In this document: in pieces, positions 27,001 to 58,529 of the stretch | Layout of the letters: each line of letters starts with the position of its first letter | Position numbering within the stretch: the stretch's first letter is position 1 | NCBI GenBank assembly: GCA_033065855.1 | Contig: JAVXUO010002935.1 | Coordinates: forward strand, 1,054,001-1,118,000 | Direction: 5' to 3' | Length of the DNA: 64,000 nt | Origin: Escallonia rubra | Lineage: Eukaryota; Streptophyta; Magnoliopsida; Escalloniales; Escalloniaceae | Position numbers and translations under genes: made by a program | The notes under the pieces: generated by a model | Seen by the model: the letters and a program-made list of their open reading frames with translations, nothing else | What the model was told of the DNA's origin: nothing | Databases searched by the model: none

Positions 27001-30000
27001 ATCTAAATGCAGAGAGAGAAATAAATTGAGAAGCTACAATAACATGTAAAAGATGTAAAAACAATACTTAGCACATCCTGGGAGGAAGAAAGCCAGTACA
27101 AAGACAAGATCTCTCTGGTCCTGTTAATTCACCTGAACTGAGTGATGTATGTCTCTCCAGAAATTTCCTCAAAAGCAGTTCCCTCCGCTGATCAGGACCC
27201 TTACACTCAACTCCAGAGTTGTGTAACGAACTATAAATCATCCCAACATTCATAATGCTACAAATGTCGTCATAATCCTCCCTTGTTCTTACTTGCTCTT
27301 CTATTATTTCCACCCCGTGAAAGGCATCAAGAAGATTTAACAGAAAGGAGCAACCTAAAATGTCTCTCTCTTCAGTAGCAGGTGGTTTCATAATTGATTT
27401 TGCTACAACAGCAATTAAATCGTCTTTGGGAGCAAAATCATTCCTTGCCAACCAGGAAAGAATAACCAGCACAGCTCGTGTTCTCACACTAACACACAGC
27501 TTTCCTAACAATGAGCCTGCAATGAATTTCTTATCAATCTCAGCTTCTCGACTTAATTCAAGCAGCCATGGGAGCCACAGATCAGCAAAGGCCAAAAGCT
27601 TCCGATTCTCTCTGAGAAAATTCCAATCGGAACCAGACTCTGCAGAAAACTTGCTAGCAACAGAAAGTATATTATTTATGGTGTTTAAACGGACTTCTTG
27701 ATCATCCCGACCAATCCCATCAATTGCCCCAGACCACTCTCTTAGGTCAACTATATCTTGAGTACTATGCAGTGGATTTGAGATGATTGGGGAACCATCA
27801 ACTGAGTTTGGAGGATCTGTCCCTGTCAACGCCATTACAGTTTCGCATTGGTCTTGAATATCTAGATCTTTCCATGCATTTAGCAGCTCACCAATGGACT
27901 CATCATCACAATGACTCAAAGCAAAACCTAGAAGTTGCTTTCGAGAACTTATATCCATGTTTTCAAGTGCGGGCCCTCTTGCCAGAGCAGCACATAAGTC
28001 CCAAATGGGCCCATGTCCCTTTTTGGCCAAAACAAGACAGAGATCAAATGCCAGCTGTAGGTCTCCAGCAACTGCTGCTTCTCTTGCAATAGCTTCTTGA
28101 ACGGCGGAGATCTCATCCTGAGAGCTCAGGCCGAAAAGCTTAGCAATTTCAATAATTTCATCAACATTTAAATAAGCTCCAGCTTGACTTGTGATGGCCA
28201 GTTTAATGATCTCCATTGGATCTTTGTTTTGCCTAAATTGCAGAGGTAGAATGTTCACTCCAAGATTTGGAAGTTTATCAGTAAGCGCATCAATAATATC
28301 TGCCTCTGCCTTGATGTTTCTGCTGCTTGGAAAGATATTCAGACATTCCTTAGCCTTCCAGATCTGTTACAAGCCCCAGCAATTTGTTCAATGAAATTTT
28401 AAAAGCAACAAAGTGACAAAACACATATTGTTATAATATCAAAAACTGCTATAGGTGGATTAAGAAAAAGGATGAAAAGAAATTGCTAAACTGTGAAGTC
28501 AGTTTAGGTAAAATAAAAAAAAATTTAAAAACTAAAAAAATCGACAGTTCTGCATAGTAACGTAGAAAAGGATGGTGTCAGAAGATTCTAGTTTGACATG
28601 AAAACTATCAGAGCCAAAGGGCAAAATGTTTGTTTACCTTAACTGCCAAGCCTAAATCCTCTTACTACGACAGCTTGATGCCCTATGCTCGGGCATTTAT
28701 ATGCCAATGATTAGAGGCTAAACAAAATGTACATTGATTGTTAAACTGCATTCCTACATTAAGATGTGTAGCGCGTTTTATCGTAATTTCACAACTATGT
28801 AATAGAAGAACAATTAGAAATTGCCGATATCCCAACAGCAACAAGCTTGGCAACAGGGAATTCTAATAATTTAAGCACAACCTAGTTGCTTCAATCTGTC
28901 TGCTTCAATAAGCCCTGCGATATGTTCAAGTACCAACAGCGTGCATGTGACTGTGGAGCTGGTCCAGTTGTGTCTTATGTGGACTAAATGGAAAGAGAGG
29001 AACAAGAAAACTTTTAATGATGTGTAATTGCCGCCAGCATGCCCTAATTCTGGGCCTCCTAATTTTTCTGGCTTAAGTTGACTCAACCTTTGTAAACTTT
29101 ATTGATAAGTTCTGTATTGGCGTCAGGGAAATACTTAGGGCTGGCCATGTCATGGTTGTAGCGTTTAACTTACGCTCAGGCTAGGACCCTGTGCAGGGCT
29201 TTGAAGCTGTTTCCATGTTATATTTTTGTGTATTAGGGTTCCATCCCCACCCCGGCCCGGTAGGATCAGTATATTATAAGTTAGCTCCTCATAAGATGCG
29301 TGCTTTAAACAGCAGAAACACAGATGAAACAACATGAGAAGGCAATATATGCGGAAAAAGATGCCACTTTAAAAATAATCATAGACTGTCATACAACAGA
29401 ACCATGTTGAACTTACTTCTGAACAAGCAAGACTTGAAGCGGAGAAGAAAAACTCTCTTGCAGCTTGAATGACTAGATTTTCTGCCTTATCTGTTGCCAA
29501 AGCAACTGAACCAGTGCCTTTTAAGTAGTTCCTTGCAAGAGAAAATTTCCCGGCTTTAAGCAGTCCCCTGCAGAATTCCATCAACATATACTCTAGATCT
29601 AGAAAAGGAAATGCCTTTTCTTGCAAGGATTGCAAATCACGCCACATGTTTGCCCAATCATTGTCTGATCGGCCTGGCTGTTTACGGATAAATTTTGAAA
29701 GTATTAGACGAAGAATCTGCTTTACACTCTTGCCATCTTTATGTGCCGCCTGAAAGAAACTAATTGGTTTTGGGACCTGTGCACGAGCAAATACAAAAGT
29801 AAATAAGATATAAGCTCCTGCAATTATGTTCATGCATATCACTCGAGTCATTTACGTCTCTATTTCAGAAGCATCACAGTTATGCAAACACATAACCATG
29901 TCAAGTCATGGCACCCCCCACCACATACAACGCTAATAAAAAGAAGCAGGCTATCAGATTATAAACGAAGAAGAGGTAAAAGGTTCTGACACCATATGAT

Positions 30001-30377
30001 TATCTGCTCCTACCAGAAAATCAGTAGCCATTTTGACAGGCCTCTCAGCTTTAACAGAAAATGGCAGAGAAAAATTGATGGCAAGAGAAGTAAGGATCTT
30101 ACAAGTTATATTCATCACTTCCACACGCAATTAGAAGAATCACACACTACCATAATAAAGCTTGAAGAAGAAAGAGTAAAATCCCCAATTACTGCCCTTT
30201 CTCAATACCAGCAAGATCAGCAGGGTAAACTAGCGGTTCTTAAGAGAATCTTATTGACAGCCATCAATTTAAGCGCCATAAATGGGCCATGAAACCCCAA
30301 GTTGTCGATGATCACCCTCCTCACGCCAACTTCCATGACTTACTGATTTTAAAGAAAGAAATAGAGGTCATCCATTT

Positions 30378-30441
<64 letters not shown>

Positions 30442-33400
30442 TGGAGGCAGAAACCTTAGAACGCTACATAGAGGAATGAAATATACCGCGTGCTTGGGAA
30501 AAGCACAACACCAATCAGTTGATCCTGTTTTGGTTTTTTTCTTTTTTTTCCCTCCAAAGTGGAAAACGGTTCCTAATTTTAAGGGAATAAAAAAGGAACT
30601 TGCAACGAAAAATATGGTCTCTTTCATTCGTTTCTGTTTCTTTTTTCATTTTTTTGAACAGAGAAACGGGAAATGCTAATATATCATGTTGCCAAATGCC
30701 ACCGTAACTTCCACCAGTAGAAAAATTAACCAAAAAGAGAGAGGGAAAAAATAAAAAAAAAGGTCCACTCTCAATGTACATGAAAAGTTAGAACTCGTTT
30801 ACTGAACCGTTCCAGCTCCATCAACGGTCCAGATTAACCAATCTATCCCAGCTCTTCTTGTTCTCCAACATTCCCCACTTGTCAGAGCTGAGCAGCATTT
30901 TGATATTAAAAGCACATTGACAGAACTAGAAGCGCCCTTCTTGCAAAGATCAGAAGACTAAACATATATCTAATGGCAGATGTGTATGCTACATGAAAGG
31001 TCAGAATTAAAACTACCTTGAGAAGGATATAAAGGTTTTGTACTATGAAGCACAGACACGGGTGCAGGTGCAGATACGCGGAAACGGCATTTTCAAAAAA
31101 TATAGGATACGGGTGCGGCGGGGATACGGCAAATTTTATATATATATTTTTAACCATATATACTCAGTATTAATTTTTAAACAAACTAAAGACCATTGCA
31201 AACTCACAAAGCAATTAAGACAAAGCCAAGGAACCAACTGGATTGTCTTAGACAAGGACACAACCAATGTATCATATTTTTCGGAGCGAATTTTAGGCCC
31301 CAGATAGTATTACTTGTTCTAAAATCGCTTCTGCTACATATTATGGCAAACGTTACTAGGCCATCATATTTTTTGGAGCTAATTTTAAGCCCCAGATAGT
31401 ATTACTTGTTCTAAAATCGCTTCTGCTACATATTATGGCAAACGTTACTAGGCCATAATCATTTCTCACGTAATTATGGGTAACTGCAAAAGTCTTCCAC
31501 CTACTTACTATACTTGAATGCAAACCATTTTTCTTGACTTCCTTTTTGAGACCAAAGCCTCTTTATGGTAGCGTCAAACAAACTGGTGAGCTTTCTCTTT
31601 ATATGTTTGAGAAAAACAAACAAATCTAATCAGTGAGAAATTAAAAGATCAATTACACATAAAATACACTGCCTGGGAGGAAGACAGAAGTACAGACTGC
31701 TGCCGGTGGTCGCCCCTCCACCCCTCCCCCCCCCCCCCACAAACAGATCTGCTGGAGATAGTCGCCGGTGGTTGCAAGGGGTTGCCGGAGTGGCCGGTGG
31801 TCGTGGCTGGTCACCGCTGCTGCTCTCTCCCATCTTCAGATGAGAGATGAGATCCGTTCATTAGGTTGGTGTTACTTTTTTATTTACGTTTTGACCCAAA
31901 AAACTTATTTTCTATGTTTTGACCCCTGAAATTTCTTTTGAAAATTATGTTTTCAGGCCACAAGTATAAAATACTAACCCGACCCGTATCCTATCCGCAT
32001 CCAAACCGCACCCGATATTAAGGAAACAAAGAAAATAAAAGAACAATTCAGGGTGCACACCCGACCCCGGTGCTTCACCCCTTTTGAAGCACCCGTGCTT
32101 CATACGTTTTATATCTACGGATATTATGATAAGATACCAACTCAATACAAATGCAGTGGGATGGGAGCATTGAAAGCAGTAGATGCTGTCATTTCATGTC
32201 ATCATCGAAAGAATAAAGTAAATAAAGAACACCATTCCATACCCTATAACAAGATAGCAAGTTTCATAGTTAAGAAGCATCCAAACCTGGTAAAATGACA
32301 AAAGCCTTCCTGCTTCAATATGGCCTTCTGCGGTTTTAAGACTTCTCTTCAGGCCCTCAAACTTAGTATCTGTAAGGTACGAATGTCACACATTGCAGTC
32401 ATCAATGATAATTTTCATATCCAAGCTGATCATATGAAAAAGTTGTGAGACATAAATGTACAAGCACATAACTAACACACACACACACACATAGATAACT
32501 TGGTATTCCAGCTGTAAATTTACTAATAAATCACATGTTTATATTTTTTATTATATCCTTACCTGGATAAATTATGAAAACGTTGATGGTAAGATGCATA
32601 GTAATGCCTCAATGACTAGCGCAACAAAAGGGATGAAGTTGACAACATAAAGTTCCAACATATTTTACGACGAGTCATTTCCACAATTTTCAACTACCAA
32701 AGCTTCTTAAAGCACTTCCCAAGGAAATTGCTGAGTAATTCTACACCACCAAAACATCTACAGCCATTGGTTTACCGGGGCCACATAGTTTCTCCTCAGA
32801 GCCTAAAAGCACATGAGCAAGTTGAAAATTTAAGGCCATTTGAAGCTTAAAACCTACCACCAAACCTTTAACTTCCCATCCCAGAGGCCAGAGCTTAGTA
32901 GCACAAGCCCAACTCTCTTCTGTTCAAAATTAATTAACCACTTGCTCCTGTGTCCAGCATACTATGCATAATCAATAATGCTTCCGAAGTACTAAACTGA
33001 TAGTTCTTGCCCCTCGTGAGATGTTTTATGATGCAATGGTACGGCATATTCAAAGTTAGAGACACATGCACAAGTACAAAGCGTGCATCAGACATCAGAA
33101 TGACACCAATCAGAACTTTTTATTTCAACTAATCATGCAATTGTTGCTGGTGAATTATTATCATCGATATGGGATGGGTCAAGCACAAACACACACATTG
33201 CTTATGGATCTTCCTAGTTTCCAAATGTTTAGCCTTAATGTCAAACTTCAGAAGAAAACTAGAGGACTACAATTCATTCAGAAGGCATTGACACGCTTGA
33301 TTTTCCTCATATTTCAAGTCTTCTTTCTAAGGAAATACTGAAGTATTGAAGATATTGTAAAATTATTATTTGAACATACATGCATAGATATTCCAAAATC

Positions 33401-36400
33401 CTTTTTTGGTACAAAAAGTACGGGACATATAATGATCATTCAAGGAAAACGGGATCAAACTCGTAATGACGAACTTACCTTGTACTTGTGGAAGTTTAGA
33501 CAACATGGAGGCCATGGTACTCCACCTATCTGTAATGCTGCAAGAGTATATGCACTGCAGAGCACAATCAACCACTTCAGCCTCATTGTTGAAAAATCCA
33601 TTTCTTTCAACCTCCCTGCATCCTTCTTCAACTATGGTTGAGCAAATGTCTAATCTATTCTCCAAAGCAATCTCTTTCATCCATCTAACAAGAAATGAGA
33701 CAGTCGTCTTATCTACAGTGGAAAGGTTATCAATGAACCCATCTCCAGAAGGGGGGTCCGCCACGTGCAATCTTTTTTGCATGAATGGAATTGCTTTAGC
33801 ACGTAGCCTTTCCACCACATTTTCCTCACTCACCCCCCTAAGCATCAATTTAAACCTTTCGTAGTCAGTTAACTGTTCCCATGCACTAAGGCTCATGGAG
33901 AAATTCATCTCACCAGCATCACCATCAGAATAAATAAGCTGATGTAAGTAAGAGATATCCTCATGGAGTTGCTGCAGTTCACATATACCTTTGCGACAAG
34001 CAAAATCAACCAAGCACAGGCAGTTGTCTAGCTGCCCACTTAAAGTATCAATATCTCTAGCTCTCTGTTTATACCATATAAGAAGTTCATCACTTGATGG
34101 CCATAAGAACCCTATGGACTGCTTGACAATGGGTTCAGTTCTAATTTGAATACTTATGTCATGATTCTGAGGTATTTCCTTGATGAAACTTACCATCTTT
34201 TCACATTCAACCCAATCAGCGTCCCTCAAAGATATACTTGAAGGAGGTGCACACCCAGGAAGCAGCTGCCCATAAGTTTGAACTGGAACTGTTTCCGGAA
34301 TAGCAGCTAAAATTTCCAGCATAAAAGGATTCAGCGAATACGGATGGCGTTTGAAGAGAAGATTTAAGGCCCCAATTTTCCCACTTTCAGCAAGTGCTAC
34401 AGCAGCTTTATTGATCAGCAAAATGCGAAATTTGTTGTACTCCTGCACAGAAAACCTGCACAAGACTAAGTCAATAAGTAGCAAGTCAGTGGAAACCATT
34501 TGAAGAGTGGATACCTTCAAGAGAAAAAGCTACAGAGGAATTAACATGAAATGCAGTTTTTTGGCACACAAACAACCAGAAACGTTGTCAGAGAGTCGAG
34601 TTGATTTCAAAAAGAAAAACCTATGTGTTATAGTAAAGGGAAAAATGAAAGTAAAAGTAATTCGAAACTGAATAACCGTTTGCTCATTGATTATTCACTT
34701 TTTAACCAAATTCACAGATATTTCGTTTTTGACTCCAGTTTACTGCGATTCTGAGTCACTTCCAAGTAAGACCGCAAGTATGTAGCTTGACATTCGTTTT
34801 CCTCATAGCCACGTCAAGGGGGTAAGGGAAGAACTTGCTACTAGCTAGTATAAAACGATAAAAGAATGGTATAATTACCTGCCCATGTTTATTCCAAGAA
34901 AAGTCTCGAGCCTGTCCCTGAATTGCAATAACTTGAGTCTTGCCAAACGAAAATCCCAAATTACACTGCTTTGATCATCTTTTGATTCAGAAAATGTGTA
35001 CTGGTTTGTTACACGGAGCCCATAATCAAGTAAAGCCCTCACTGCATCTTCTGTTGGTCCAACTCTATTTACACATTCAGAAAGTACAAAGGCTTGATCT
35101 TTGATAGGTGACAGAAAAATATTTATCTCGTTTGCTCCTTGCCCAGAATGCAACCATTGTGACTTCAGCACTTCATCTTTATCCAATCTATGACGATCAG
35201 CAAACTCTAGAGCAGTCTGATACTTTCCACCACTAATAAATGCACCATACATCTCAGGAACAGATCTCTCCGAAAAAGATATCAAGCTCCAGTGAAGATT
35301 GGCAATGTCAAACTGATTATATTTATCCAGAATGAATGTCTCCATGAGATGTAAGTCACTTCCTGCCTTTATATGAGACGACTTGTAGCTTCCATCAGAT
35401 GATGTACTCTCTAGAAGAAAAAGACGTCCAGGAAACAGCTCTACTCGTTCTAATATGGGCGCGTTGTATACTGGATCACCCCCTGAAACTTTAACACCGT
35501 CAAGTACTCCAACCATGGCAACAGTACCACTCCTTTGAGCAACGGTAAGAATTTGGTCAGACCACCAAGTAAAGTCTGTTACATCTTCCAGATGTTGTTT
35601 TTGTCCGGATGAGTTGTGTCTTTCTTCACAAGAAATTTTTGAAAGAGAACCCTGCTCTTCATCCACCTTGAAAGTGACCAAGAAACCTCTTATATCTAAG
35701 GTGGCAACAAACTTCCCCCGCGGTGAGAATAGCACCTTTGGAGATGTAAATCGACCAACATAACCCTTCGGTTTAGAATATAAACCATCAACTTCAGTAG
35801 AAGACAATCGTGTAAGATCTTTGTTCCTACTTCTTTGCCAAATTGAAAGTATACTAGATCCTGGGAAGGAAAAAAGAAGGCTGATAAGTAGCTTATTGAG
35901 TTTCAGTAGGTAAAAGAAAGGCTTCAAGAAAACCTTGCAATTATGAGAGCATGTCAAAGGTCAACACTTTATCTCAACGTGATTGATTACAAAACAAACA
36001 TTTGAGAGAGATGAAGAGAGAACTTGACTCCAATGGCAAAAAGTCCAAAAGCATATTATACATCTTTATAGAGTGGAAACGGCATGTGTTGGGAACACCC
36101 GTGCTGTCCTACTAATCATTACTACATGAAGTTAACATCTTACCAATTGAAGCAATGTAAAAGCATGTGCCACTTGGCACTTATGAGGAAACTTTTAGAT
36201 TTTAAAGCAATCTAAAAGCATGTTTGCTCCCATCATTTTTTATTTTTTGTTTGTCCCTGAACACATATCAAAGTGAGCTAAGATAATAAACACTGGCATC
36301 ATCAAGACACGAGCGGTGCAGAACCAGCTCTCTGGAAGTTATGTGGCATTCAAAAAAAGTTGAAGATTGGTCAATGATCATCATGTGTATCTCAATGCTT

Positions 36401-39353
36401 CAAACGGACTAGTGGGACCTTCATTGCAAAACTCTCCAGTTCTACTGGCGCTCAAACCCCACCCTAAAACCTGCTATACTACCCCCACCTGCTCCCACTC
36501 CCTCCCACGCTTCATGCAACTAACAATCCCAAGCATCCGATACAGTTTCAGTTAGTACCATGAGAGATTCGTATCTAATTCACCAAAATCACTAAAGAAG
36601 ACTGAATGGAAAAGTATGGAACGTACCAGTATTTCCACCAGAGGTCAATGAGATGCTTGAGGCACTACTAACTACAGCAAACAAAGAAGTTTCTCCAAAA
36701 AAATCGACGCAGAACACATTTGGAGGAAAATGTTTCTTTAGCATTGATCCATTATTTGAGGTGCATGCTGACGAAATGGAGGCACTTGGATCCTGACTTA
36801 TCTCAATATCATGAAGTGAACCATCTGCCATAAGAACACTGAAGGTACACCTGAAAAAAATTGTATGCATTTAAATAGGGATATAAAATCTACTAACCAG
36901 AGATATCGAACATAATAGTCAAAACAGCATCATACAAAGGAAGGAGACATTGAGATGAAGACTTACAAACAGGACCTTTTGATATCAGAGTCATCCAACA
37001 AAATCAAGCCTATAATTGGGACAGACGCCTTCAAAAGCTTCTTTGTAATTCTCGTTATCTCCTCACCATTAGCTTTGATAAAATAAACTGTATCAGCATC
37101 ATCAGCGACTCCTAGAACTTCATGGGACTCTGACCAAGTTCCACACGTGAAAGTGACAAGTCCTTCACCTGCTTGCACAAAGGATAAGTAATGCAGAGTA
37201 AGTGGCAAATGAACGGCAGGAGACCATAATCAACCATCAATATTAAACTGGCATGTTCATCATTGAATACCTTGGCTTCTAAAAGGGTAGTACTGGACTC
37301 ATGGAAACTCTTAAAGAGCATTTATCCTTGTGTTCACACCGACCAACATTAATAAAATAGAAGTTATGCAAGTGATAAAGTAAGTAACTGCATTGAACTA
37401 TCTTTGAATGCAACTCATCGAAAGTCCGAGGCAAGAAGCAAATCCTTCCTTCCTTTCAGCCATTGCATACAGACTAACAGTCCACTACATTTGGATGGAA
37501 GCAAATGGAGAGAAAAAAGCCCGCTGCGCCGAAGTGATCAATGGTCCCTCGCCCGACCTCTTTTTTGCCTTATCCTCCAAAATGACAAATATTTGGAGAA
37601 AAAAGGTAGTAAGTGAATGTCCATTTTGTCATTGCCTCCTTGGACCGTCTATAGTGTTCTATTTCTAGACCTGTCTTTCCAGAAGGAGCACCATGCAAAA
37701 AAAATTATTTTATTTCCTTGTTAACCATTTTTTTTTTCCGCGCGTGTGTTCGGGGAAGTTATGACTATTTACTATGCCAACATATTCAACTGTTCCATTA
37801 CATAAGTGAATCTTACTGGTGAAGACGCCACACGGATCACAGTAGTCATCATCTTTCTTCAACATCGTTATCTGATTCCCAGATGCTACAGCTACATGCT
37901 CGCCTCTTGGAGAGACAAACAACGATGCCAATTTCCTTACTTTCTGCGGATGCCTAGGTTCCCTCCACTTTTCTTTAAGTTGTCTGACACCTTCATGGAC
38001 CATGGAATGAAAATGGACATCAGCAATTTATATTTTGCCATAACCAACCAATTTAGAAAAAGACAAGAGGACGAAAACATTACGAACTGGAGAAATGATG
38101 AAGAAAAAAACAGAAGGTACAATTTGGATCAAGAACACACATTAAAGCGAGAAAAATAAAACAAGCAACCAATGGGGCTTTGTCTAGGGAATAAAACCTC
38201 TCAGATATATCACAGTTTTACTGCCAACGTGTGGCTGACAGAAGGTGCGAGCAATGATAAGCTAGGAAAATGGATCCAGTCAGCCTTTATTGCAGTTATG
38301 ATGTGTGGTCATGTTAACAAAGCACATTCTTTCAGCAGATTCAAATATTTCCATGAAAGGATCAGTAACGCTCTTTGCTGTATAAGTTTTTTACGATAAA
38401 TGACAACATTGCCCAGCATTCTTGTAAGAACAATCAGGTTCGAATTTTACAAAGACATCTTCCATGAAAGAGTTGCATTCCTAATTCTCATCTTGCACAA
38501 AGTAAGCAACTTAGCAATGAGCCTATGTAGATAATTGAAAATGCAAGTTGGTACATATTGATGTAATATAAAAGTGGAACGAGCTACATGGATCACACCT
38601 CGCAGTAACCAAAAGCCACTTAATTACTACTGTAAGTAACTGAACGAAAACAAAAACTTTCGCACTCCACTTCGTCACTGACCTAATTAAGTATCACTAA
38701 AGGCCACCAAAAAGTGCCACTAAAGATCTTTAGAGCCAAAGTGGAGCGCAGTAGTTGAAAAGTGGAGCATGGTTATCCATTTTCAAATTTATACGCATAT
38801 ATCATATTATTCCCTCCGTTCATATTCTTTCTCCCCTTTCGACTTTTTGCAAGTTCCTAGGTTAGAGTTTAAACACATTATAATTTAATTCAACTCAAGC
38901 AGCAATTATATACCAAATTACGATTGTCTCAGAAGTCAAACTAGGGCAAAAAACAATGAGGAAACTCAATGTATCGAATGTTTGAATGAAATTTGCAAAA
39001 GGCCATAGGGGACAAAATTTATGGAACTGGATGGAGTATTTAGCTATAAATGTACATGCGAGTTTAAGTATCATTCATACAAATAAACTACAAGATAAAA
39101 GCGGACCTCGTGGCGTAAGCATTGAAAGAAAGCTTCCTTTAGCACCTCCATTTAGCTGAATTTTCAATACCAAAAAAAATGAATTGGTGAGAAAAGCCTA
39201 ATTCGTGACAATATGGAGATTCAAACAGCAGTTGAGAAGTGTAGTTTGATTAAATTTGTGGACCTGTTGATAAGAAGGAGGGTAATTGGAAGAATAGGGC
39301 CTTGAGGCGTGGTGACGTATCTCGTAGAGAACTTCATGCGCGCTTTCCTCCAT
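24031..39353 (-). CDS. MIP2: MIP2, plant NBAS/Sec39-like subunit of the ER-side Golgi-to-ER tethering complex, 12 coding exons
   Basis: Expected to act at the ER with MAG2 (RINT1/Tip20-like), MIP1 and MIP3, tethering COPI vesicles returning from the Golgi. In Arabidopsis, loss causes storage-protein precursors to accumulate (family knowledge). Coding exons in transcript order: 39353-39264, 39155-39107, 37990-37817, 37168-36967, 36850-36627, 35860-34879, 34455-33479, 32369-32287, 29776-29417, 28363-27133, 27002-26737, 26649-24031. They total 7257 nt, 2418 residues, close to Arabidopsis MIP2; every junction has GT/AG and matching phase. The N terminus (MEESAHEVLYEIRHHASRPY) leads into a beta-propeller-like region, roughly residues 60-570, with SLFVSPRGEHVAVASGNQIT and GTWSESHEVLGVADDADTVY. 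Helical Sec39-type sequence follows from about 600. An acidic Trp motif (NWGSDDWDEGWESFPEE) lies near residue 2125. The first ATG was chosen because exon 1 matches the family N terminus. No break seen. Confidence 0.95.
28364..29416 (-). other. MIP2 intron 9
   Basis: AT-rich intron between the exons ending at 29,417 and starting at 28,363. A frame at 28,871-29,086 is not supported. No repeat with definable ends. Confidence 0.6.
30379..30437. repeat. (TG)n(AG)n microsatellite in MIP2 intron 8
   Basis: An uninterrupted TG run is followed by an AG run. It makes low-complexity open frames on both strands. Confidence 0.9.
31043..32105. mobile_element. hAT-like nonautonomous element in MIP2 intron 8
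   Basis: The left end CTATGAAGCACAGACACGGG and the right end GCACCCGTGCTTCATAC are imperfect inverted repeats. Flanking 8-mers GTTTTGTA (31,035-31,042) and GTTTTATA (32,106-32,113) look like a slightly decayed 8-bp target duplication, as hAT elements make. Subterminal GATACGGGTGCGG / CGACCCGTATCC motifs are also inverted. No transposase. Noncoding cargo includes a 92-bp tandem duplication and a C-run near 31,728-31,738. Confidence 0.65.
31271..31454. repeat. 92-bp tandem duplication inside the hAT-like element
   Basis: ATCATATTTTTCGGAGCGAA starts at 31,271 and, with few changes, at 31,363. Each copy ends GTTACTAGGCC. Confidence 0.9.
38810..39036. mobile_element. Stowaway MITE in MIP2 intron 2
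   Basis: 227 bp bounded by TTCCCTCCGTTCATATTC and the inverted GGAACTGGATGGAG, with TA on both sides (38,808-38,809 and 39,037-39,038). This is the Stowaway/Mariner-type target duplication. No coding capacity. Confidence 0.8.
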
Positions 39354-39670
39354 CGTACAACTGCAATTCGCGGTGGTACGATTGGCAAGCGGCGGAAAAG
39401 ACAGCCAGGTTGTGACGGTGATCGGTGGCGATCCTGGCCGAGCGCGTAGTTACGGTGGTGATGTTGGTCGTCGGTTATGGCAGAGTGCATCTGGTAAAGT
39501 AATCACAGTAAGCAGCAAGAGGAAGAAAGCTGGGCCGTGTTTGGTGCTTTTAGTCGCTCAAGCCCCCCATTCTGTTGCCTAAGAAATGCAACATCACTTC
39601 AGTGACAATTGGAAACATTTTTTTTTTTGGTTTAAATAGAAAATTGGTATTGATAACATAAAATATTCAA
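39354..39670. other. Region directly upstream of MIP2
   Basis: Probable MIP2 5'UTR and promoter read on the - strand. No clear TATA box seen. The + strand open frame 39,373-39,582 runs antisense to the leader region and shows no family signature. Confidence 0.5.
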
Positions 39671-47296: not shown

Positions 47297-47317
47297 GGGC
47301 ACTACAAGAAAACAGGC

Positions 47318-47696
47318 TTTTAGCGACGGGGAAATCCGTCGCTAAAAGCCCAAAATTCGTCGCTAAAAGAATTAGCGACGGATTTGCCGTCGCTAAAAAT
47401 CCCTCGTATAAAAGCCCGTCACTAATAGTTTAGCGACGGAATTTTTAAATCCGTCGCTAAATATGTGCTTTTTACCGACGGATTTATTTCTCATTAGCGA
47501 CGGATATTCCGTCGCTAATTATATTTTTAGAATTTTATTTTATTTTCTTTTTTGTCCAATTAGCGACGGATTAAATATTTAGCGACGGAATATTCCGTCG
47601 CTAAAAAACTTATTTAGCGACGGAATATTCCGTCGCTAAATAACTGATTGAAAGGAATACTTTAGCGACGGAATAAATCCGTTGCCAAAAGTCAAA
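47318..47696. repeat. CACTA left subterminal repeats (TTTAGCGACGGA)
   Basis: About 18 direct and inverted copies of TTTAGCGACGGA or close variants, many as back-to-back palindromes such as GCGACGGAATATTCCGTCGC. In En/Spm these arrays are the binding sites of the element's own regulatory protein (family knowledge). Confidence 0.9.
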
Positions 47697-47954
47697 AATT
47701 TTTTTTGAATTTTTTTTTATTTTTCAATTACCTAAACCTGTACAGAAATACAATTTTCAATTCTCAACAACAACGCGCAATAAGCGAAATACAGAAAGAA
47801 ATATATATAATCAATTATAAAAAATATTTATTATAAAAGAAACTCATACATGTACAAGCCGGGAACCGGAGATAGCCGGTTAGGAGAGGGGAGAAGAGTA
47901 CAAGCCGGGTGCGGGGGGGGGGTGAAGCTAGGAACGGGCACGGGAAGGGGCTCA

Positions 47955-49632
47955 TCAGGGGTTCCCGAGTCCCGGATCTGGATCCTGCTGAACCGGGGCC
48001 GGGGCGGCTGGTCCAGCAGTGCCCTGCTCCCTCATCATCCGGCACACCACTGTAGCAATGCGCTGGATCTCCTCGTCGTCCAACTGAGGCCGAGGAGCCG
48101 GTGTCTGTGGAGGGGCAGCAGGGGGTGAGGACGCTCCTATCACGGCACGAGGAGTCGTGCTAGGCAGGCCGCGTATGCGGCCTTTCGGCCGATTCACGAC
48201 CTCCGGCGTATCCAGCCATCGCTTCAACCCCCCAGTACTCGCAGCCGTACTAGTGGACGCTGATGGCTGTCCGGACTGCTGCTCGGACCCCCTTAGCTGT
48301 TCATACGAGGCCTGCAAAAATAGTGGTTTAACGATATGTTAGGGCATTAATTAACGAAACAGACATTGAGGATAGAAAGAAAAAACATTAACTTAAATAA
48401 ATTGACTCACATCGATCCGCCGGGCAATATCTGAAATATAGTCGCCCGCCTGGTGCGTCTCGTCCTTGTCCTTCTTCCGCACGTGCGTCTGAGTATAGGT
48501 CAGAGCTATGACCTCATCCTCCTCTAGATCCGGGTGCTCGACCGCGTTCATGTGTCGGACGATGTCGTGTGGCACCGACCCCCCCGTGTGCGTCGGATCT
48601 CTGTTCTGTCTGTTCTCAGCCCCGCTCTTACTCTTGGCGTCCCAACCTGGATCCGCAGCCCACCGATCTATCATCTCCCCCCATACACGGTGAGATATCC
48701 AATGTGGGGGATATTTCGTCATGTCCGTCATCGGGGCACCCGCGGGCAGCGCCTTCTTCGCCCGGTCCCGTGCATCGTGGAGCCATCGGCGGTAATTCTT
48801 GCCGATGTAGGCAAAGAAAGCCTGCTGCCCCAGTACCTGCTGCTCAGGCGTGTCAAACGTGAACCCCTCCTGTAATGCATTCAATAACACAAATTAACAA
48901 CATAAAACAAACTGTAATTTAACATTTACTAACGCTGAAAAAAATACTTCACCGTACCAGCCACTCCTCCCATAGGGCCTCCCTCGCAGCGGCATCCCAG
49001 TCCTTCCAGTACAGGCGTGGCTCGAAGAATCGGCCCTTCACAAGAACGCCGATCTTCGTCCTCGCCATATTCTCCAGGATCCTGCCAAAGAAGTAATTAA
49101 ATTAATTAATACAGTTCAAATATAAATTAACACCCAAAAATTTTAAACATAAGGCATGAGGTGATATTTTTAGTACTTACAGGCCCTCCTGCGTGAGCGT
49201 AACTCTCTGTTTACGCTGGGGGTCGATGCGTACCCCGCGTGTCGGACCACGGCCTCGTCGAGATCCTACAAAACACAGACATTAATACAGTTCAAATATA
49301 AGGCTAGCGAAAATGTACGAAACACCGTTATCAACTATACCTGAGGTAGAACCCACGGAAGATGGAGAATGCACGCGCGTGTGGGATAAATCTGCGTCGG
49401 GCTGGGGCGACGGCTCGAGCTGGGGCTGCGGCGACGGTTGGGGCGACGGCGATGGCTGGGGCTGGGGCAACGGTGACGGCGACTACTGGGGCTGGGCCCC
49501 CGATGGCTATCCGCGATCACTCTGTGCCTCGTCATCAGTAGGCAATGACGAGGTGGGACTAACCGGGGAGGAAGCAGCTCGGCGTCCAGCCCGGCCACGA
49601 ATAGCCCGTATCCTATCCATATCTGACTTCAT
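47955..49632 (-). CDS. CACTA accessory protein, TNPA-like / Transposase_24 family, with in-frame stops in exon 1
   Basis: Probable second CACTA protein, expected to bind the subterminal repeats and assist transposition. Exons by phase: 49632-49341, 49265-49181, 49081-48958, 48869-48411, 48311-47955. The Transposase_24-type core spans exons 3-4 (FFEPRLYWKDWD, GKNYRRWLHDARDRAKK, YPPHWISHRVWGEMI). The tail is Pro/Ala-rich with an acidic helix (DDEEIQRIATVVCRMMREQ). Exon 1 (starts MKSDMDRIRAIRGRAGRRAA) encodes a Pro/Ser/Gln linker holding two in-frame TAG codons, at 49,507-49,509 and 49,483-49,485. The annotated frame would therefore stop after 41 residues unless a different start or extra splice bypasses them. 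Exons 2-5 show no break. Confidence 0.75.
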
Positions 49633-49798
49633 ATAGATTATATACAAAGACATTAACACGTGAAAAACAATAATTTAGGCATAAATCATCATCGGCACTA
49701 TATATATATATATATGAACGGATGTGCAAAAACACATCAATAAACACCAAGTTCTAAAATGTTACTACATTTTTCCCGTGATGTTACAACATTACAAG

Positions 49799-52700
49799 TC
49801 AATCATTTTCAGTTTGCGAATCATCTTCATCACTATCCTCGTCGCCCTCTTCTTCGTGGGACTCGTCGTCCTCTTCATCTTCTAATTCATCCTCTTCATC
49901 AGTAGACTCGGTCACATCATCTCCAACACTTTCAACATCTTCCGCGTCATCATCTACGACTTCTTCTCCCACAAGAAGTGTTGTTGGAAGAGGAAGATCG
50001 TCCTCCTCGTTGTTGACCTCAACAGGGAACAAGACACGTGGTTGGTCGGCTTGAAAGGAGTCTAGCTCACTGTCATATGTCACGGGCAATTTCTTGGACT
50101 TGATAGTTGTATACCAATGAGATTTGGGATTGGCGACGTCCTCCGCGTAAAAGACTTGTACAGCTTGACTAGCAAACACAAAGGGCTCGTCTGATGCAAG
50201 TCTTGACTTGACATTGACATCTACAATCCCTTGAGAGCTAACACGGATTCCTCTACTGCATGTGACATCGAACCACGTACACTTGAACATTACCAGGCGG
50301 TTTTGGGAACCCAGATATGTTAGCTCAACAATCTCATCTAGCTCTCCGTAAAAATCCATGCAATTCTCGGCATAACAGTCGCCGTTGACCAAGACTCCAC
50401 TGTTTTGGGTTTGTTTTGTTCGGTCATCATCTTTTACGTTAAACCTAAACCCGTTGATGATATAGCCTCCGTAACAGGATGTTTGTTTGTTAGGGCCTTC
50501 GGCTAGTAATTTCAAGCAGGAGGCCACTGGTCTATCCATTGACTGAACCTATTGTAGATGACGGTAAAAATTAAGGATAAATCAGTATACTAATTGGCCA
50601 CAGAACTGTATATAACACATAATATAATTTCGTTAAATAATCTTACACGGATTTTGAACCACTGTACAAATTGTGATTTCCGGTGAGATTCAAGTCCAGC
50701 GGGATCAGTGATTAAAGATTCCGCATCGAACTCACTGCAAACCAATATGCATTTAACTCGCTTAACACACACTTTCAATTATGTACAGCAATGTAAGTGA
50801 ATTAAGACTTTAACTTACTCAACGAATGCCGAAACTTCATCGCAATTTAGAAGGGCATATATTGTTGCAGCACTGTACTCTTCATCTGTTAGCCATCGAG
50901 TATACGTTCGGCCGAACGGACTACCTGACTGCTTGAATATTGACAATTGCCCTTCCAAATTTGTGCTTGATCCGGGATCATTTCGGCCTAGTTGATTTAA
51001 CCTTGTACCAACATCCGAACCGAAATATTGACTACAAAAGTTTACAAGTTCTTCCATTACGTAAGCCTCCGCAATTGAGCCCTCAACCCGAGCCTTATTA
51101 CGGACTTTTTTCTTTAAATGGAACATGAACCTAGAAGTTTAGGAAATCGAGTTAGGTGGAATATCAATGATAACAGATGTCGCATTAAGTGTAAACGAAC
51201 AACTGTAACAATTTAAGGATTACCTCTCGAAGGGATACATCCACCGATATTGCACGGGTCCACCCATCTTAGCTTCATATGCCAAGTGAACAGGCAGATG
51301 CTCCATTGAATCAAAGAACGAAGGTGGGAAGATTTTCTCCAGCTTGCAAATCGTCACCACAATGTTCTTCTCAAGCACTTCCATGTTACTCACCCGGATC
51401 GTAGAAGAGCATATATCTCGAAAGAAATGAGATAATTCAGTCAAAGTCTCGCAAACAACCCGTGGCAACAGTCCCCGGAAGGCAATAGGAATGAATCTCT
51501 CCATGAATACGTGGCAGTCGTGACTCTTCATCCCTTGGAACTTGCATTCCGATACATTGCAACAACGAGATATGTTGGACGCAAACCCATCCGGAAGCTT
51601 CAAATTCTTAACCCACTGACAGACCTTCTCCACTTGTTTCTTGTCTAGACAGTAAGGTGCTTTCGGAAGTATGGTCCTCCCACTGACTGTCCGAGGATGC
51701 AATTCACGGCGTACACCCAACTGTTGTAGATCCCTTCTCGCTTTAAGGTGATCTTTCGATTTGCCCTTGAAATTCATCACTGTGTTGAACACATTATCAA
51801 AAACGTTCTTCTCAATATGCATCACATCCATGTTGTTTCGGATAACGAGCGTCCTCCAGTAGGCTAACTCCCAGAAGATACAAAATTTTCTCCAGTTGTG
51901 CTCTTTCCCGAACCCTGCAATCTTCTGATCCGGCACACCCTTACCGTGTGGTATGTCAGTATCAAGTGCCTCCAGGTGTGAGAGTACTTCTTCACCAGAT
52001 GGGTAGTCCAGCGTGACAACCTCACGCTCGATTGTCCCGTCAAATTTATCCTTCTGCCTACGAAACTGATGGCCCGGTGGCAAAAGCTTACGGTGACATC
52101 CGAACCACGAGGCCTTTCCGCCGTGCTTTAACGTATGACCGGGGTTCACGCCCATACAAGCAGGGCATGCTAGCTTCCCATGTGTGCTCCAGCCACACGT
52201 CATTCCCAATGCGGGGAAATCATGTATAGTCCACATCAAAGCAGCCCTCATCTGAAAATTTTGTTTAAGGAATGCATCATATGTTTCGACTCCATGATTC
52301 CATAATTGTTTTAACTCATCAATCAACGGCCTTAAATACACATCTATGTCCTTACCGGGACTCTTCGGCCCCGGAATAAGCAACGACAAGAACATATACG
52401 GCTTCTTCATGCACATGCCTGGTGGAAGGTTGTAAGGGACAATAATAACAGGCCAACAGGAGTAAGGCGTGGTAGACTGACCGAAAGGGTTGAACCCATC
52501 GGTTGCCAGACCAAGTCTAACATTCCGAACTTCCTGAGCAAAAACTGGATGCCTGCGGTCAAACTCCTTCCACGCCTCTCCATCAGCTGGGTGTGTCAGC
52601 ACATCGGCATCGTTGCTGCGAGTCTCACGGTGAGCCCTCATATGTTCAGCCGTACTGGAGGAGTAGTACATTCTCTGAAGCCGTGGTGTGACCGGGAAAT

Positions 52701-53457
52701 ATCGCAATATCTTCCATGCAATGTTTTTCTTCTTCCCTTTGTCCGGTTTGTACCTCGAATGATCACATACTGGACATAATGACAAATCCTTATTCTCTTT
52801 CCAGAATAATACACAATCGTTGATGCACGCATCTATCCGGTCATAGCTCAACCCAAGTTTCCTCATCATCTTCTTCGCGTCATAGTACGACGGCGGTAGC
52901 TTTTCACTTTCGGGCAGTATTTCTTTGATGAAGGTAACAAACTCGTTAAAACCTTTCTCACTCAGCCCGTGGTCTGATTTCAACTGTAATAACCTACTAA
53001 CCGCAGACAGCCGTGTGTGTTTCGGAGCTCCATCCCACAGCGGCTCTTCCGCAGCTCTCAACAACTCATAAAACTGATGAGCCCCCTCGTTCGGCGGTTG
53101 TGGCCTGTCGTTACCCCAGTCAACATTAGCATGCCCAGCATCCATAATCATATCTCGGAAATCATATCGTGCCTCCTCCCTAACTTCAGTTTGACTAGCC
53201 AGGTTGGACGACAATACTATCGTTTCCCCGTGCTGCGTCCACCTTGTGTATCCACCCATAAAACCGTACCGACGAAGATGCCATTTTACTTCAATTCTTT
53301 TTCTCCAGTGCAACAACTCACATCTACCGCACGGGCACCTTATCTTATCAAGGTCAACATGTGCAGGATGCGCATAAGCGAAGTCGAGAAATTCGTCAAC
53401 GCGACACTCAAAATCTTCAGCATTCTTCCTTTTCATCCAACTTCGATCGACTGACAT
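49799..53457 (-). CDS. CACTA transposase (TNPD/TNP2-like), 4 exons, apparently intact
   Basis: Catalyses excision and insertion of the element. Exons: 53457-51224, 51130-50819, 50734-50647, 50548-49799. They total 3384 nt, 1127 residues, with all junctions GT/AG and in phase. Order: Transpos_assoc domain (about 1-85; MSVDRSWMKRKNAEDFECRV, CPCGRC), Tnp2/Transposase_21 catalytic region (about 300-560), DUF4218 (about 640-800; GGPVQYRWMYPFERFMFHLKK), DUF4216 (about 920-1000; CYGGYIINGFRFNVKDDD), then a strongly acidic tail. The expected acidic triad is present: Asp near 320 (ATDGFNPFG), Asp near 412 (TIHDFPA), Glu near 547 (MDVMHIEKN). The start codon lies in the common family start MSVDRSWM. 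No frameshift or stop seen. Confidence 0.93.
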
Positions 53458-53708
53458 GACGACTGAATTATCGTACTGTATACCACCTTCACTAATGATC
53501 AGTGATTAGGCATTGCCGATGTAAATATCAATGCATGAATGTTACAACATGTCTACATATTTCCCCTCCACTCTTGAACAGGTAGTGGTCCTATCCCATT
53601 CAGAAAAACACATGTTTATAAAACAGTGAATAACTCATGCTTAGTCCGATGTCTGTGGAAAATTCGGCAGCACCTCCCCGCATTTCTCCAAGTACACCAC
53701 ATCGATTA

Positions 53709-53765
53709 GGTGTTCTAACATTCATCTAACCTTGCTCAGGAAGGTTTGACGGATGTTAGAACACC
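53709..53765. repeat. 57-nt imperfect palindrome upstream of the CACTA transposase
   Basis: Arms GGTGTTCTAACATTCATCTA... (53,709-53,733) and its inverse (53,741-53,765) pair at about 21 of 25 positions around a 7-nt loop. It lies about 250 bp upstream of the transposase start codon. Confidence 0.75.
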
Positions 53766-54186
53766 AGATCTGTATGCACCCGGAGAAACACACGAGAACG
53801 TGTACCAAATATCCACGACATAGAACATAAAGCATGAGTCAAAATACTGTTTTATAAACAATTAGCTTTTCCAAACTGTCCAAACTGGACATCCAAAGGC
53901 TCATTACAAGGCATTACTTTGTAATGAGTACCTTTGAACGGGAACTAAGGGTTTCTATGCATGCATGTGTTCAGAAATTAATAAGATATGCAAGAATCTT
54001 TCCGAAATATCAAAACTGCAGAATGATCGTTGCATATGTTATCAATTCCACATTAAATAGAACTCGTTGGCAACGAGTTGAACCATCTCGTTGCCAATGG
54101 ACTTCTCAAAACAACAATTAATATAAAGAAGGCAGGGTTTGTAAACAACGAGTAATTGAACCATCTCTGGGCAACATGGAGTAATT

Positions 54187-54965
54187 ATGAGATGTACAAG
54201 GGCTAATTAGGGCTAACTGGGTTATTTTCTTTAATTACGATTATTAATTATAGCTGATTAGAGTTGATTAGGACTAATTAGGGTTATTTAGTCCTAATTA
54301 GGGTTTAATTGTGCCGAGTAGTGATGATTAGTCCTAATTAGGGCTAATTGGGCTTAATTGGGTTATGTTAGGGCTAATTAATGTTAATGAGGGATAGTTT
54401 CGGATGATTATAGCTGACTAGGGTTGATTAGGACTAATTAGAGTTATGTAGTCCTAATTAGGGTTTAATTGTGCCGAGTAGTGCTGATTAGTCCTAATTA
54501 GGGCTAATTAGGCTTAATTGGGTTATGTTAGGGCTAATTAATGTTAATGAGGGCTAGTTTCGGATAATTATAGCTAATTAGGGTTGATTATGACTAATTA
54601 GGGTTTAATTGTGCCGAGTAGTGATGATTAGTCCTAATTAGGCTTAATTGGGTTATGTTAGAGCTAATTAATGTTAATGAGGGCTAGTTTCGAATAATTA
54701 TAGCTAATTAGGGTTGATTAGGACTAATTAGGGTTATTTAGTCCTAATTAGGGTTTTGATGGTGCCGAGTAGTGTTGATTAGTCCTAACTAGCGCTAATT
54801 AGGCGTAATTGGGTTATGTTAGTGCAAATTATGACTAATTAGGCTAACTACAATCAATATGCGCATAATTGGGTTCATTTGGGCTAATTTGAGGTAATTA
54901 CAGCTAATTTGAATTTCATCAGGTTCTTAGGGTTAATTAAAACTAATTAGGCTCGTTAGAGCTAA
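54187..54965. repeat. CTAATTAGGGTT satellite-like array with a 160-bp higher-order unit
   Basis: Short units such as GGGCTAATTAGG and GTCCTAATTAGGGTT are arranged in a higher-order repeat marked by TAGCTRAYTAGGGTTGATTA at 54,252, 54,411, 54,571 and 54,701. Spacing is 159, 160 and 130 bp, the last copy lacking about 30 bp. GTGCCGAGTAGTG recurs in each unit. Noncoding, inside the CACTA element. Confidence 0.85.
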
Positions 54966-55103
54966 TTAGGGTTAATCCGGACACGTGTCCGACGCCCACC
55001 GACACGCACCTCCAGACACATCGGCATACGTTAATTTGTTTTCTAAATGTCGGACACCGTCGATCAGACGTGGTGTCCGTGTCTGCGCTAACTAACAGGT
55101 ATC

Positions 55104-55440
55104 TCAATCCAATTGGGTCCCATCCTCCGTCAACAATCTCAATTCTCAATTCTCAAATGCTCAATGCAATAAAAATTAACAAAAATCACACATTCAATCC
55201 AATTGGGTCCCATCCTCCGTCAATAATCTCAATATCTCAAATGCTCAATGCACAATTAACAATCTAAAATCATCAATTAACAACCTAAAATCATCAATTA
55301 ATAATCGCAATTACTTCAAATGCACAGCTAATAACCTAAAATCATCGATCAATAATCACAATTCTAAAACGCACAATTAACAACCTAAAATTATCAAACA
55401 AATGATCAATGTTCAAATGGGAAAAAAATGTTCAAAATTC
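55104..55440. repeat. AT-rich tandem repeats including a 90-bp duplication
   Basis: TCAATCCAATTGGGTCCCAT starts at 55,104 and again at 55,194. CAATTAACAACCTAAAATCA-type units follow to about 55,400. Noncoding part of the CACTA element. Confidence 0.75.
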
Positions 55441-55464
55441 ACATATCCGATGCGCTTGAATTAT

Positions 55465-56165
55465 TTCAATTTAGGGTTCGATTGTATTAGGGCATTCAAT
55501 TTAGGGTTCAATTAGTTTCATTTAGGGTTCGGTTCGATTAGGGCATTCAATTTAGGGTTCAATTACTTCAATTTAGGGTTCAATTAGGGGGTTCTATTGA
55601 TTCAATTTAGGGTTCGGTTGATTTGAGGCATTCAATTTAGGGTTCAATTAGTTCAATTTAGGGTTCGGTTGGATTAGGGCATTCAATTTAGGGTTCAATT
55701 AGGGTTCGGTTAGATTGGGGCAATCAATTTAGGGTTTAATTAGGGGTTCAATTAGTTTAATTTAGGATTCGATTCAATTAGGGCATTCAATTTAGGGTTC
55801 AATTACTTCAATTTAGGGTTCAATTAGGGGGCTCTATTGATTCAATTTAGGGTTCGGTTGATTTGAGGCATTCAATTTAGGGTTCAATTAGTTCAATTTA
55901 GGGTTCGGTTGGATTAGGGCATTCAATTTAGGGTTCAATTAGGGTTCGGTTAGATTGGGGCAATCAATTTAGGGTTTAATTATGGGTTCAATTAGTTTAA
56001 TTTAGGGTTCGATTCAATTGGGGTTTAGGGTTTAGGATTTAGGGCATTCAATTTAGGGTTCAATTAGTTTAATTTAGGGTTCGATTCGATTAGGGCATTC
56101 AATTTAGGGTTTAATTAGGGTTCAATTACTTCAATTTAGGGTTCAATTACTTCAATTTAGTGGTC
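55465..56165. repeat. TTTAGGG-rich minisatellite (CAATTTAGGGTTCAATTAG) with a 240-bp duplication
   Basis: Dozens of CAATTTAGGGTTC units occur with GGTTCGGTTGATT variants. A larger block around 55,560-55,750 recurs near 55,800-55,990, offset 240 bp. TTTAGGG is the plant telomere heptamer, but here it sits inside a longer, different unit, so this is not a telomere array. Confidence 0.85.
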
Positions 56166-57590
56166 GGTTGAATTGGTCAAAATTTGTTGAGATCGTGCAT
56201 CGTGCCATGGATCTCCGGTACTTGTTAAGATGGTCAAAATTTGTTGAGATCGTGCCATGGATCTCCGGTACTTGAGACCCTCCTTGTGGAGTAACTCAGT
56301 ACAGTTATGGACATGATGCTTTAGGCACCCGTCGTTCGATTTTTCTCATTTGGTCTTTTTGGTTTGTTGCGTCCTCACTGCCATGAAATAGCATTTGCTC
56401 TATACTTGCAGTATCCCTTCATTGACATTAACAGATCATTCTAATGGGGATTTAGTCTAACAATTGCTAGGACCATGTTTGAAAATTGAATCCTATTCCA
56501 ATAAGGGTTTTCTCGTGCACAAACCTTCGACAAGGTGGCACATGAGCACACAGGGAGAGAAACAACACACACATGGAGGTTGGCTCGGTCCTTCTGGTCT
56601 AAGGGAAAATTTGTTTCTAGGGAATTAGGAGAAGAGTTCCTAAGAATCCCACAGCATGAAAAACCACGAGGACGACCAAGAGGCTACCATCAAAGTACTA
56701 CCATCACCCAAGCACTCGGTTCAGACAACTTGAGGCAACATACTAAGATATATAACACCTAAACAATATTAAATTAACTTTGGGTGCTTGAAAACTGAGA
56801 TTGTATATCTCGTGCGCTACAATAACTGCTGCCCTAGTAATAGCACTAGATTATGCACCACCAACTAATTATTAACCCAGCCATCATCTCTCTTTTAATG
56901 CAATAGCATGCACCACTGTCGCAAGAATGAAAGGCACTGCTTGTAGTAATGATCGAACTAATAGCTAAAAGAAATTACAACATAGTTGGAAACCAAAATC
57001 TGGTCACTCGTGTTTACCGTCTATGTGTTTCAATATGAACACAACACGCTTCTCAATAAGTTTCTATCTGACAAGTACAACATGCTTCTCAGTCTTAAAC
57101 ATGTGACTGCCTCATAGCTTGATTCTCCGTTTCAAAACTGAATATGGGGTTTGCTAAGAATAGAAAAAGTTCCTAAGAATCCTACAACATGGGAGATGCT
57201 GCTGCACAAAATTCTAGAAGCAAGCTCAGAAGACTTCCACGCTACGTTCACAACAGGAAGGATAATGCAAGAATATGTAGTTGATGTGGATGCTCGAATC
57301 ATAGAACCACTCAGAAGGCCCAAAATGAACACAATTCCATCATTATTTTCAATAACAAATACCAATCAATCATTTAAGCACCTGATTAATTGGGCAATTA
57401 TTATGCATGTGTATCTCATTTGCAAGAAATCCACATAGACCCACAGACAAAACCTAATTGCAGAACACTAGAGAGGGTGAAACATAAAAGCCCAGAGCAA
57501 ACAAACCTTCTTTGCTATAGAACGAAATTCAAGTTTACCAAGCATGAAGAGAACTTATGTTCAAGGCTCACCTTGCAAGGTTTTTGAAGA
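56166..57590. other. Non-repetitive CACTA interior, possible captured DNA
   Basis: Between the satellite arrays lies DNA of ordinary composition. Open + frames at 56,535-56,762 and 57,151-57,438 share a short sequence, TTCCTAAGAATCCYACARCATG (56,637 and 57,170). The second reads GRIMQEYVVDVDARI, faintly like Helitron helicase-type proteins, but too short to name. No splice model found. Confidence 0.3.
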
Positions 57591-57592
57591 TG

Positions 57593-57774
57593 GGCGGCGC
57601 GGCAGTGGTGGCGGCGCGACAGTGGTGGCAGCGCGGCAGTGGAGGCGGCGCGACAGTGGTGGCAGCGCGGCAGTGGAGGCGGCGCGACAGTGGTGGCAGC
57701 GCGGCAGTGATGGCGGCGCGACAGTGGTGGCAGCGCGGCAGTGGTGGCAGCGCGGCAGTGGTGGCGGCGGTCCT
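57593..57774. repeat. 18-bp GC minisatellite (GCGCGACAGTGGTGGCAG)
   Basis: About ten copies of an 18-bp unit alternating between GACAGTGGTGG and GGCAGTGGAGG. Being a multiple of three, it keeps all frames open and gives Ala/Arg/Gln/Trp/Gly-repeat frames on both strands that are not genes. Confidence 0.9.
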
Positions 57775-57830
57775 TCGGTGTATTCCGTCCGGGGCTAGGT
57801 TGACGGGGATGGCGACAGAAGGAATATCGC

Positions 57831-57844
57831 CGGTGAGAGAGAGG

Positions 57845-57879
<35 letters not shown>

Positions 57880-57881
57880 CA
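57831..57881. repeat. (GA)n microsatellite
   Basis: A near-pure GA run near the right end of the CACTA element. Confidence 0.9.
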
Positions 57882-57924
57882 ACGGGAGAAAGAAAAGAAA
57901 GGGGATCTTATCTTTTTAAGTCCT

Positions 57925-58110
57925 TTACCGACGGAACACACACGTCGGTTAAAGTCCGTTGGGAAAACCCTACTTTCATCGACGGGTGTTTTTAAAGACG
58001 GAATTATTTCGTCGTTAAATAGTTTTACCGACGGACTTTTACCGACGGTTATTTCCGTCTCTGAAACGACTTTTAGCGACGGAATTTAGTCCGTCGCTAA
58101 TTCCCTCTTT
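57925..58110. repeat. CACTA right subterminal repeats (TTTACCGACGG-type)
   Basis: About ten copies of TTTACCGACGGA and variants (CGTCGGTTAAA, ATCGACGGG, GTCCGTCGCTAA). Most read ACCGACGG here, whereas the left end is mostly AGCGACGG. Confidence 0.85.
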
Positions 58111-58120
58111 TCTTGTAGTG

Positions 58121-58529
58121 GGGGTTCCCACACTAAAGAATGAAAGCCTGAGTAAAGCCAAAATAGACTCTCTCTCTCTCCCTCTCCCTCTCCCTCTCTC
58201 TCTCTCTCTTGCACACGCGGTCGACGCTGTAAAAAGATAATCCAATGTCTTTGCATGTGATGAACATAAGGGGAAAAGCTTATCACTCTCAATGTTAAAT
58301 TTTACAACGGAAGATATTAAGGGGACATGATTCTGTAAAGCTTGTGAAATGAGTATCATAAGTGGTGACGAATCAGTGAAGCACTGTTAAAACCAAAGTG
58401 GTTTGCAATTGTAGTTGCCCAAGTTGAAGTAACCATTACTTCTTATCATAATGGAATTGGTGACAGAGCTGATTAAGGAATGATCCAATTATGTCAGATC
58501 CCAAATCCATTTATCCTCATAATCAACAA
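58121..58529. other. DNA between the CACTA element and the LINE relic
   Basis: A CT-rich microsatellite lies at 58,168-58,210. The rest is unclassified and may be a diverged extension of the L1 relic. No gene. Confidence 0.4.

Follow-up and report, generated by a model that had tools for sequence, protein, structure and literature searches.

An apparently complete CACTA transposon in Escallonia rubra with an open transposase frame beside a probably disabled second gene

The maize En/Spm element has 13-bp terminal inverted repeats (TIRs) and is flanked by a 3-bp target duplication. En/Spm transposition absolutely requires both TnpA and TnpD as described in PMC2613891, and PMC8195511 likewise reports that both are needed; the former describes a single transcription unit that is alternatively spliced to give both mRNAs. 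Complete Jozin elements are described as 8.3 to 10.1 kb long with 19 to 23 copies of a 12-bp subterminal motif, and the same source lists a "CDA type 3" for, e.g., Chenopodium iljinii, C. quinoa, Amborella, barley Caspar, and Arabidopsis Taiki and Taimi (PMC8978399). In rice, CACTA elements carry pre-miR820, and miR820 has OsDRM2, a host methyltransferase gene, as its target (PMC3459959). Here we describe a CACTA element in a 64-kb stretch of Escallonia rubra contig JAVXUO010002935.1 (positions 1,054,001 to 1,118,000), hereafter the window. We consider it likely that this element is a plant CACTA transposon of the En/Spm superfamily, complete in structure, that has an intact transposase frame and a disabled second gene and is probably not autonomous.

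The element spans positions 47300 to 58120 of the window (10,821 bp), the same limits that were given in an earlier, sequence-only reading of this DNA. Its termini are inverted repeats that begin with CACTA and end with TAGTG, as in the CACTA (En/Spm, DTC) superfamily. The 13-bp sequence CACTACAAGAAAA at the left end and its exact reverse complement at the right end have no further exact match in the window, so the matching termini claimed in that reading are confirmed. Beside the element, the sequence reads ...AAAAAGGG on one flank and GGGGTTCCC... on the other, with GGG before the left end and GGGG after the right end. This fits the GGG target duplication proposed earlier, with three bases being weak evidence alone. 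The motif TTAGCGACGGA, with at most one mismatch, occurs 21 times in the window (0.44 expected), including 16 copies at the left end of the element and 4 at the right. These 20 copies lie on both strands near the ends, as is characteristic of subterminal motifs in the superfamily, and several form facing inverted pairs. The remaining copy, at 340-350 on the minus strand, is an exact match 47 kb from the element; it may be left over from a related element or may be chance.

The layout is that of a standard plant CACTA element of the En/Spm type and is ordinary of its kind. Like maize En/Spm, the element has subterminal motifs and a transposase frame upstream of the second-gene exons (PMC2613891). 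The two differ in length (8.3 kb in maize, 10.8 kb here), and the second protein here is of a putative Transposase_24/ORF2 type. The closest match by domain set, rather than by alignment, is to CDA type 3 as described in PMC8978399, in which ORF1 has the same Transpos_assoc, Transposase_21, DUF4218, and DUF4216 domains and ORF2 has Transposase_24, the latter scoring below the cut-off here. In contrast to that type, the Escallonia element has two premature stops in its second gene and a long, repeat-bearing leader with a hairpin. The Jozin elements described in the same source differ in both the terminal sequence after CACTA and the subterminal motif. Meanwhile, a 7,372-bp CACTA insert at RsMYB1 in radish has a 13-bp terminal repeat identical to that of the Escallonia element (PMC7210773), although it differs in locus and size and the likeness is known from the termini only.

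The transposase gene consists of four minus-strand exons with GT-AG junctions, which together give an open frame of exactly 1127 codons. Its three introns are 84 to 98 nt long, with 26.5 to 33.3% GC. Other junctions near the second intron (50824/50760) would give 1134 codons, and since several further choices also stay open, the precise splice positions are modelled ones. The protein matches four Pfam domains, each nearly end to end: Transposase_21 (1.5e-85), DUF4218 (2.5e-47), DUF4216 (1.6e-19), and Transpos_assoc (8.4e-18). The Transposase_21 (TNP2) score of 286.1 bits, against a cut-off of 28.6, is as expected of the superfamily. The four-exon, 1127-residue frame and the four domains of the sequence-only reading were thus reproduced. 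Its proposed D...D...E residues are present as letters (D320, D413, and E549), and they form a plausible triad as judged from the sequence; however, the Pfam Transposase_21 match covers residues 286 to 496, which leaves E549 outside it. A different possible third acidic residue, a glutamate between the two aspartates, is suggested in PMC1636069. E549 lies ahead of the first intron, which comes after residue 744. In a study of 64 CACTA transposases (PMC4158355), a four-exon ancestor is proposed and most introns are described as downstream of the catalytic motif, yet one of its three regions of introns is at or close to the E. The transposase gene described here shares the exon number of that ancestral model, a comparison by count rather than by aligned intron positions.

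Searches for relatives of the transposase were made in several collections. A PDB sequence search with exon 1 returned no matches at E values up to 1. Scanning viral contigs with the exon 1 protein gave eight candidate stretches, none confirmed by tblastn, and pattern scans found no relatives in viral contigs and none in genome contigs. Since the scanned collections consist of viral and prokaryotic DNA, these scans say nothing about plants.

Downstream of the transposase and on the same strand lies a second gene, overlooked in the sequence-only reading, which we model as five exons joined by four GT-AG introns (24 to 33% GC). A single frame runs over all five exons save for two TAG codons in exon 1. 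The gene occupies the position where CACTA elements carry ORF2/TnpA, and its predicted domain is likewise that of ORF2: the protein matches positions 3 to 135 of the 138-position Transposase_24 profile (E value of 4.4e-6, 27.3 bits). The Transposase_24 domain was used to select tnpA candidates in a CACTA study (PMC8195511). An autonomous CACTA element would have both its transposase and its TnpA/ORF2 genes intact; the second gene as modelled is interrupted by the two TAG codons.

Transcribed from right to left, the element would first express a cut-and-paste transposase of the TnpD/TNP2 type and then, from the ORF2/TnpA position, a protein whose En/Spm counterpart binds subterminal repeats. 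This copy would be competent in cis, in that its ends could be moved, and it could supply transposase. With a second protein cut short at 37 residues, it is probably nonautonomous, except where a related element makes that protein or splicing removes an unusual GC-rich intron. If the En/Spm need for both proteins carries over, the copy would be movable and may make transposase, while another source would have to provide the second protein. An open TNP2 frame alone does not make a CACTA element autonomous, and this locus offers a clean example, with such a frame beside a disabled partner gene.

Several points weigh against the reading of a disabled second gene in a nonautonomous copy. The Transposase_24 score is just under the Pfam cut-off of 28.7 bits (26.6 bits with exon 1 included), the start of the gene is modelled and the true start may differ, sequencing or assembly error may explain the two TAG codons, and the requirement for an ORF2 protein in this element's family is carried over from En/Spm. 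Furthermore, nine in-frame introns of at least 60 nt could on paper skip both TAG codons, the shortest being 102 nt (49563-49462). With such an intron, or with an alternative start that avoids the stops, the element could be fully autonomous and recently active, as the perfect 13-bp TIRs, the intact transposase frame, and the origin of both En/Spm mRNAs from alternative splicing of one unit (PMC2613891) would favour. However, all nine stop-free introns have 63 to 74% GC, against 24 to 33% in the seven introns modelled for the element, and the argument for recent activity is drawn from sequence. We consider an autonomous, recently active element decidedly unlikely. The sequence-only reading had taken the wholeness of the element as a sign of recent activity; the ends are indeed whole and the transposase open and domain complete, but recent activity goes too far given the two in-frame TAG codons. 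The open transposase frame and perfect ends would fit an insertion of no great age.

The second feature that the sequence-only reading did not mention is a foldback of 276 nt within the leader, which stops 142 nt short of the transposase start codon. On the sense (minus) strand its minimum free energy is -141.1 kcal/mol, compared with a mean of -66.7 (standard deviation, 5.0) for shuffled sequences (z = -14.8), and none of 200 shuffles reached it. The foldback thus has the stable structure on the transcribed strand that is expected of a plant MIRNA, where transcription is taken from the direction of the genes. The plus strand folds less stably (-96.9 kcal/mol), though likewise far beyond its own shuffles (z = -10.2). 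In a coarse fold scan of the window (852 windows of 260 nt), the hairpin was cut by the grid and, with -93.7 for the minus strand, took 18th place. Windows ranked above it lie at 47.2 to 49.6 and 57.6 to 58.2 kb, which hold the element ends, the second gene, and 17-bp repeats, as well as near 40.0 to 40.5 and 63.3 to 63.6 kb. In the subterminal array, the two strands fold with similar stability (-113.9 on the minus strand at 47391 and -105.7 on the plus strand at 47401).

Compared as DNA, the arms of the hairpin share 78% identity (100 matches among 128 aligned positions, with 12 gap positions left out). Their differences comprise 10 transversions and 18 transitions, and 16 of the latter preserve sense-strand pairing as G-U, whereas 2 break it (P = 0.0013). 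In four more local alignments of the arms, 13 to 16 pair-keeping transitions stood against 2 pair-breaking ones (P = 0.001 to 0.007). All these comparisons were made after the hairpin had been noticed. The excess suggests, without proving it, that the pairing of the sense RNA has been kept. Strand-biased mutation was considered as another source of the G-U excess; the two flanks checked (53458-53599 and 53876-54195) show no joint skew in T>A and G>C of the kind that it would be expected to leave, which is not proof against it. Among five other inverted repeats in the window that served as controls, the ratios of G-U counts on the plus and minus strands were 30:17 (P = 0.08), 3:0, 0:0, 9:1 (P = 0.02), and 1:1. 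The 9:1 repeat lies in a tandem array, and the inverted-repeat search, at its settings, did not recover the hairpin itself.

By analogy with the rice elements that carry pre-miR820, in which a foldback likewise lies inside a CACTA element (PMC3459959), the leader hairpin could be a small-RNA precursor. The comparison is uneven, since rice miR820 has small-RNA and OsDRM2 target evidence, while the Escallonia hairpin is known from its sequence and predicted fold. In a fuller version of this idea, the transposon would carry the hairpin as a small-RNA gene that is co-transcribed with the transposase and selected for its fold on the sense RNA, and the small RNAs cut from it would act either on a host gene or on CACTA copies related to the element, paralleling miR820. 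We regard this proposal as doubtful. If the hairpin does make small RNAs, it would represent a further CACTA element with its own small-RNA gene, and it would then be useful for testing whether CACTA elements repeatedly evolve action on host silencing.

We give roughly even weight, for and against, to a simpler origin, in which the hairpin is an unrelated palindromic insertion (e.g., a miniature inverted-repeat transposable element) or a decayed inverted duplication with no role as RNA. Predicted hairpins are common in plant transposons, and 32.52% of maize CACTA elements are reported to contain one, of one kind (PMC10760457). Such an origin is also in keeping with the strong folding of the plus strand and with the skew seen in one of the five control repeats (9:1), another being at 30:17. 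No Rfam match at gathering scores was found anywhere in the window, and the 13 matches returned for 53300-54200 at E values up to 10 were all below gathering scores. Six 13-letter cores of the hairpin were not found in the literature text searched. A small-RNA target scan confined to the window, using an exact 6-base seed filter without a shuffled control, gave three sites beyond the hairpin itself; each scored 4.5, the limit, and all three were taken as chance. A palindrome with no RNA role would not, however, readily account for the difference in folding energy between the strands, for the pair-keeping transitions in all five arm alignments, or for their presence beside flanks without a matching skew. 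The maize hairpins are described as biased to the TIRs (PMC10760457). Given these and rice miR820, a hairpin within a CACTA element is not rare in itself; an internal, sense-biased hairpin of such length is more notable.

The leader as a whole, from the 5' end of the element to the transposase start codon, is about 4.7 kb long and partly repetitive (Table 1). Its GC-rich repeats resemble the GC-rich leader of maize Spm; the literature searched gave no paper on a GC-rich control region in Spm.

Table 1. Positions of features of the Escallonia rubra CACTA element, numbered along the window
Feature	Position	Strand	Basis
GGG, left copy, putative target site duplication	47297-47299	.	
TIR, 3' end of element (downstream of genes)	47300-47312	+	exact 13-bp match to other end
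3' subterminal array, 16 copies of TTAGCGACGGA (at most 1 mismatch), both orientations	47320-47672	.	motif count
Second gene (ORF2/TnpA position), exon 5, to stop codon	47955-48311	-	
Second gene, exon 4, much of Transposase_24 match	48411-48869	-	
Second gene, exon 3	48958-49081	-	
Second gene, exon 2	49181-49265	-	
Second gene, exon 1, two in-frame TAG codons	49341-49620	-	
In-frame TAG, codon 46 of second gene	49483-49485	-	
In-frame TAG, codon 38 of second gene	49507-49509	-	
Transposase, exon 4, DUF4216 and acidic tail	49799-50548	-	
Transposase, exon 3	50647-50734	-	
Transposase, exon 2	50819-51130	-	
Transposase (TnpD/TNP2-like), exon 1, Transpos_assoc, Transposase_21, start of DUF4218 region	51224-53457	-	
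276-nt RNA foldback upstream of transposase start codon	53600-53875	-	folding against shuffles; arm comparison
AT-rich tandem repeat array, leader	54245-54755 (about 54.2-54.8 kb)	.	
Second AT-rich tandem repeat array, leader	55459-56157 (about 55.3-56.2 kb)	.	
GC-rich 17-bp tandem repeats near 5' end, putative leader	57593-57769	.	
5' subterminal array, 4 copies of TTAGCGACGGA	57925-58100	.	motif count
TIR, 5' end of element (upstream of genes)	58108-58120	-	13-bp match; outermost 30-nt arms 87% complementary
GGG, right copy, putative target site duplication (within GGGG run)	58121-58123	.	

Elsewhere in the window, Pfam matches place pieces of a Sec39 domain at 27.1 to 28.4 and 33.4 to 34.5 kb on the minus strand. 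They belong to a host gene, with putative limits of 24031-39449 (minus strand) read from the frames, that is probably the plant MIP2/NBAS-like tethering factor. The putative first exon, near 39.35 kb, was chosen by eye among the frames, guided by plant MIP2 proteins. We considered whether the element had inserted within this gene, but with that first exon it lies about 8 kb upstream of the apparent start and not in the coding part. Weak matches to Integrase_H2C2 and rve, both below the cut-off, at 11540-11980 on the minus strand probably mark a retroelement remnant. A large inverted repeat, also outside the element, spans 12866-14386, with arms at 12866-13371 and 13861-14386 that are 80% identical.

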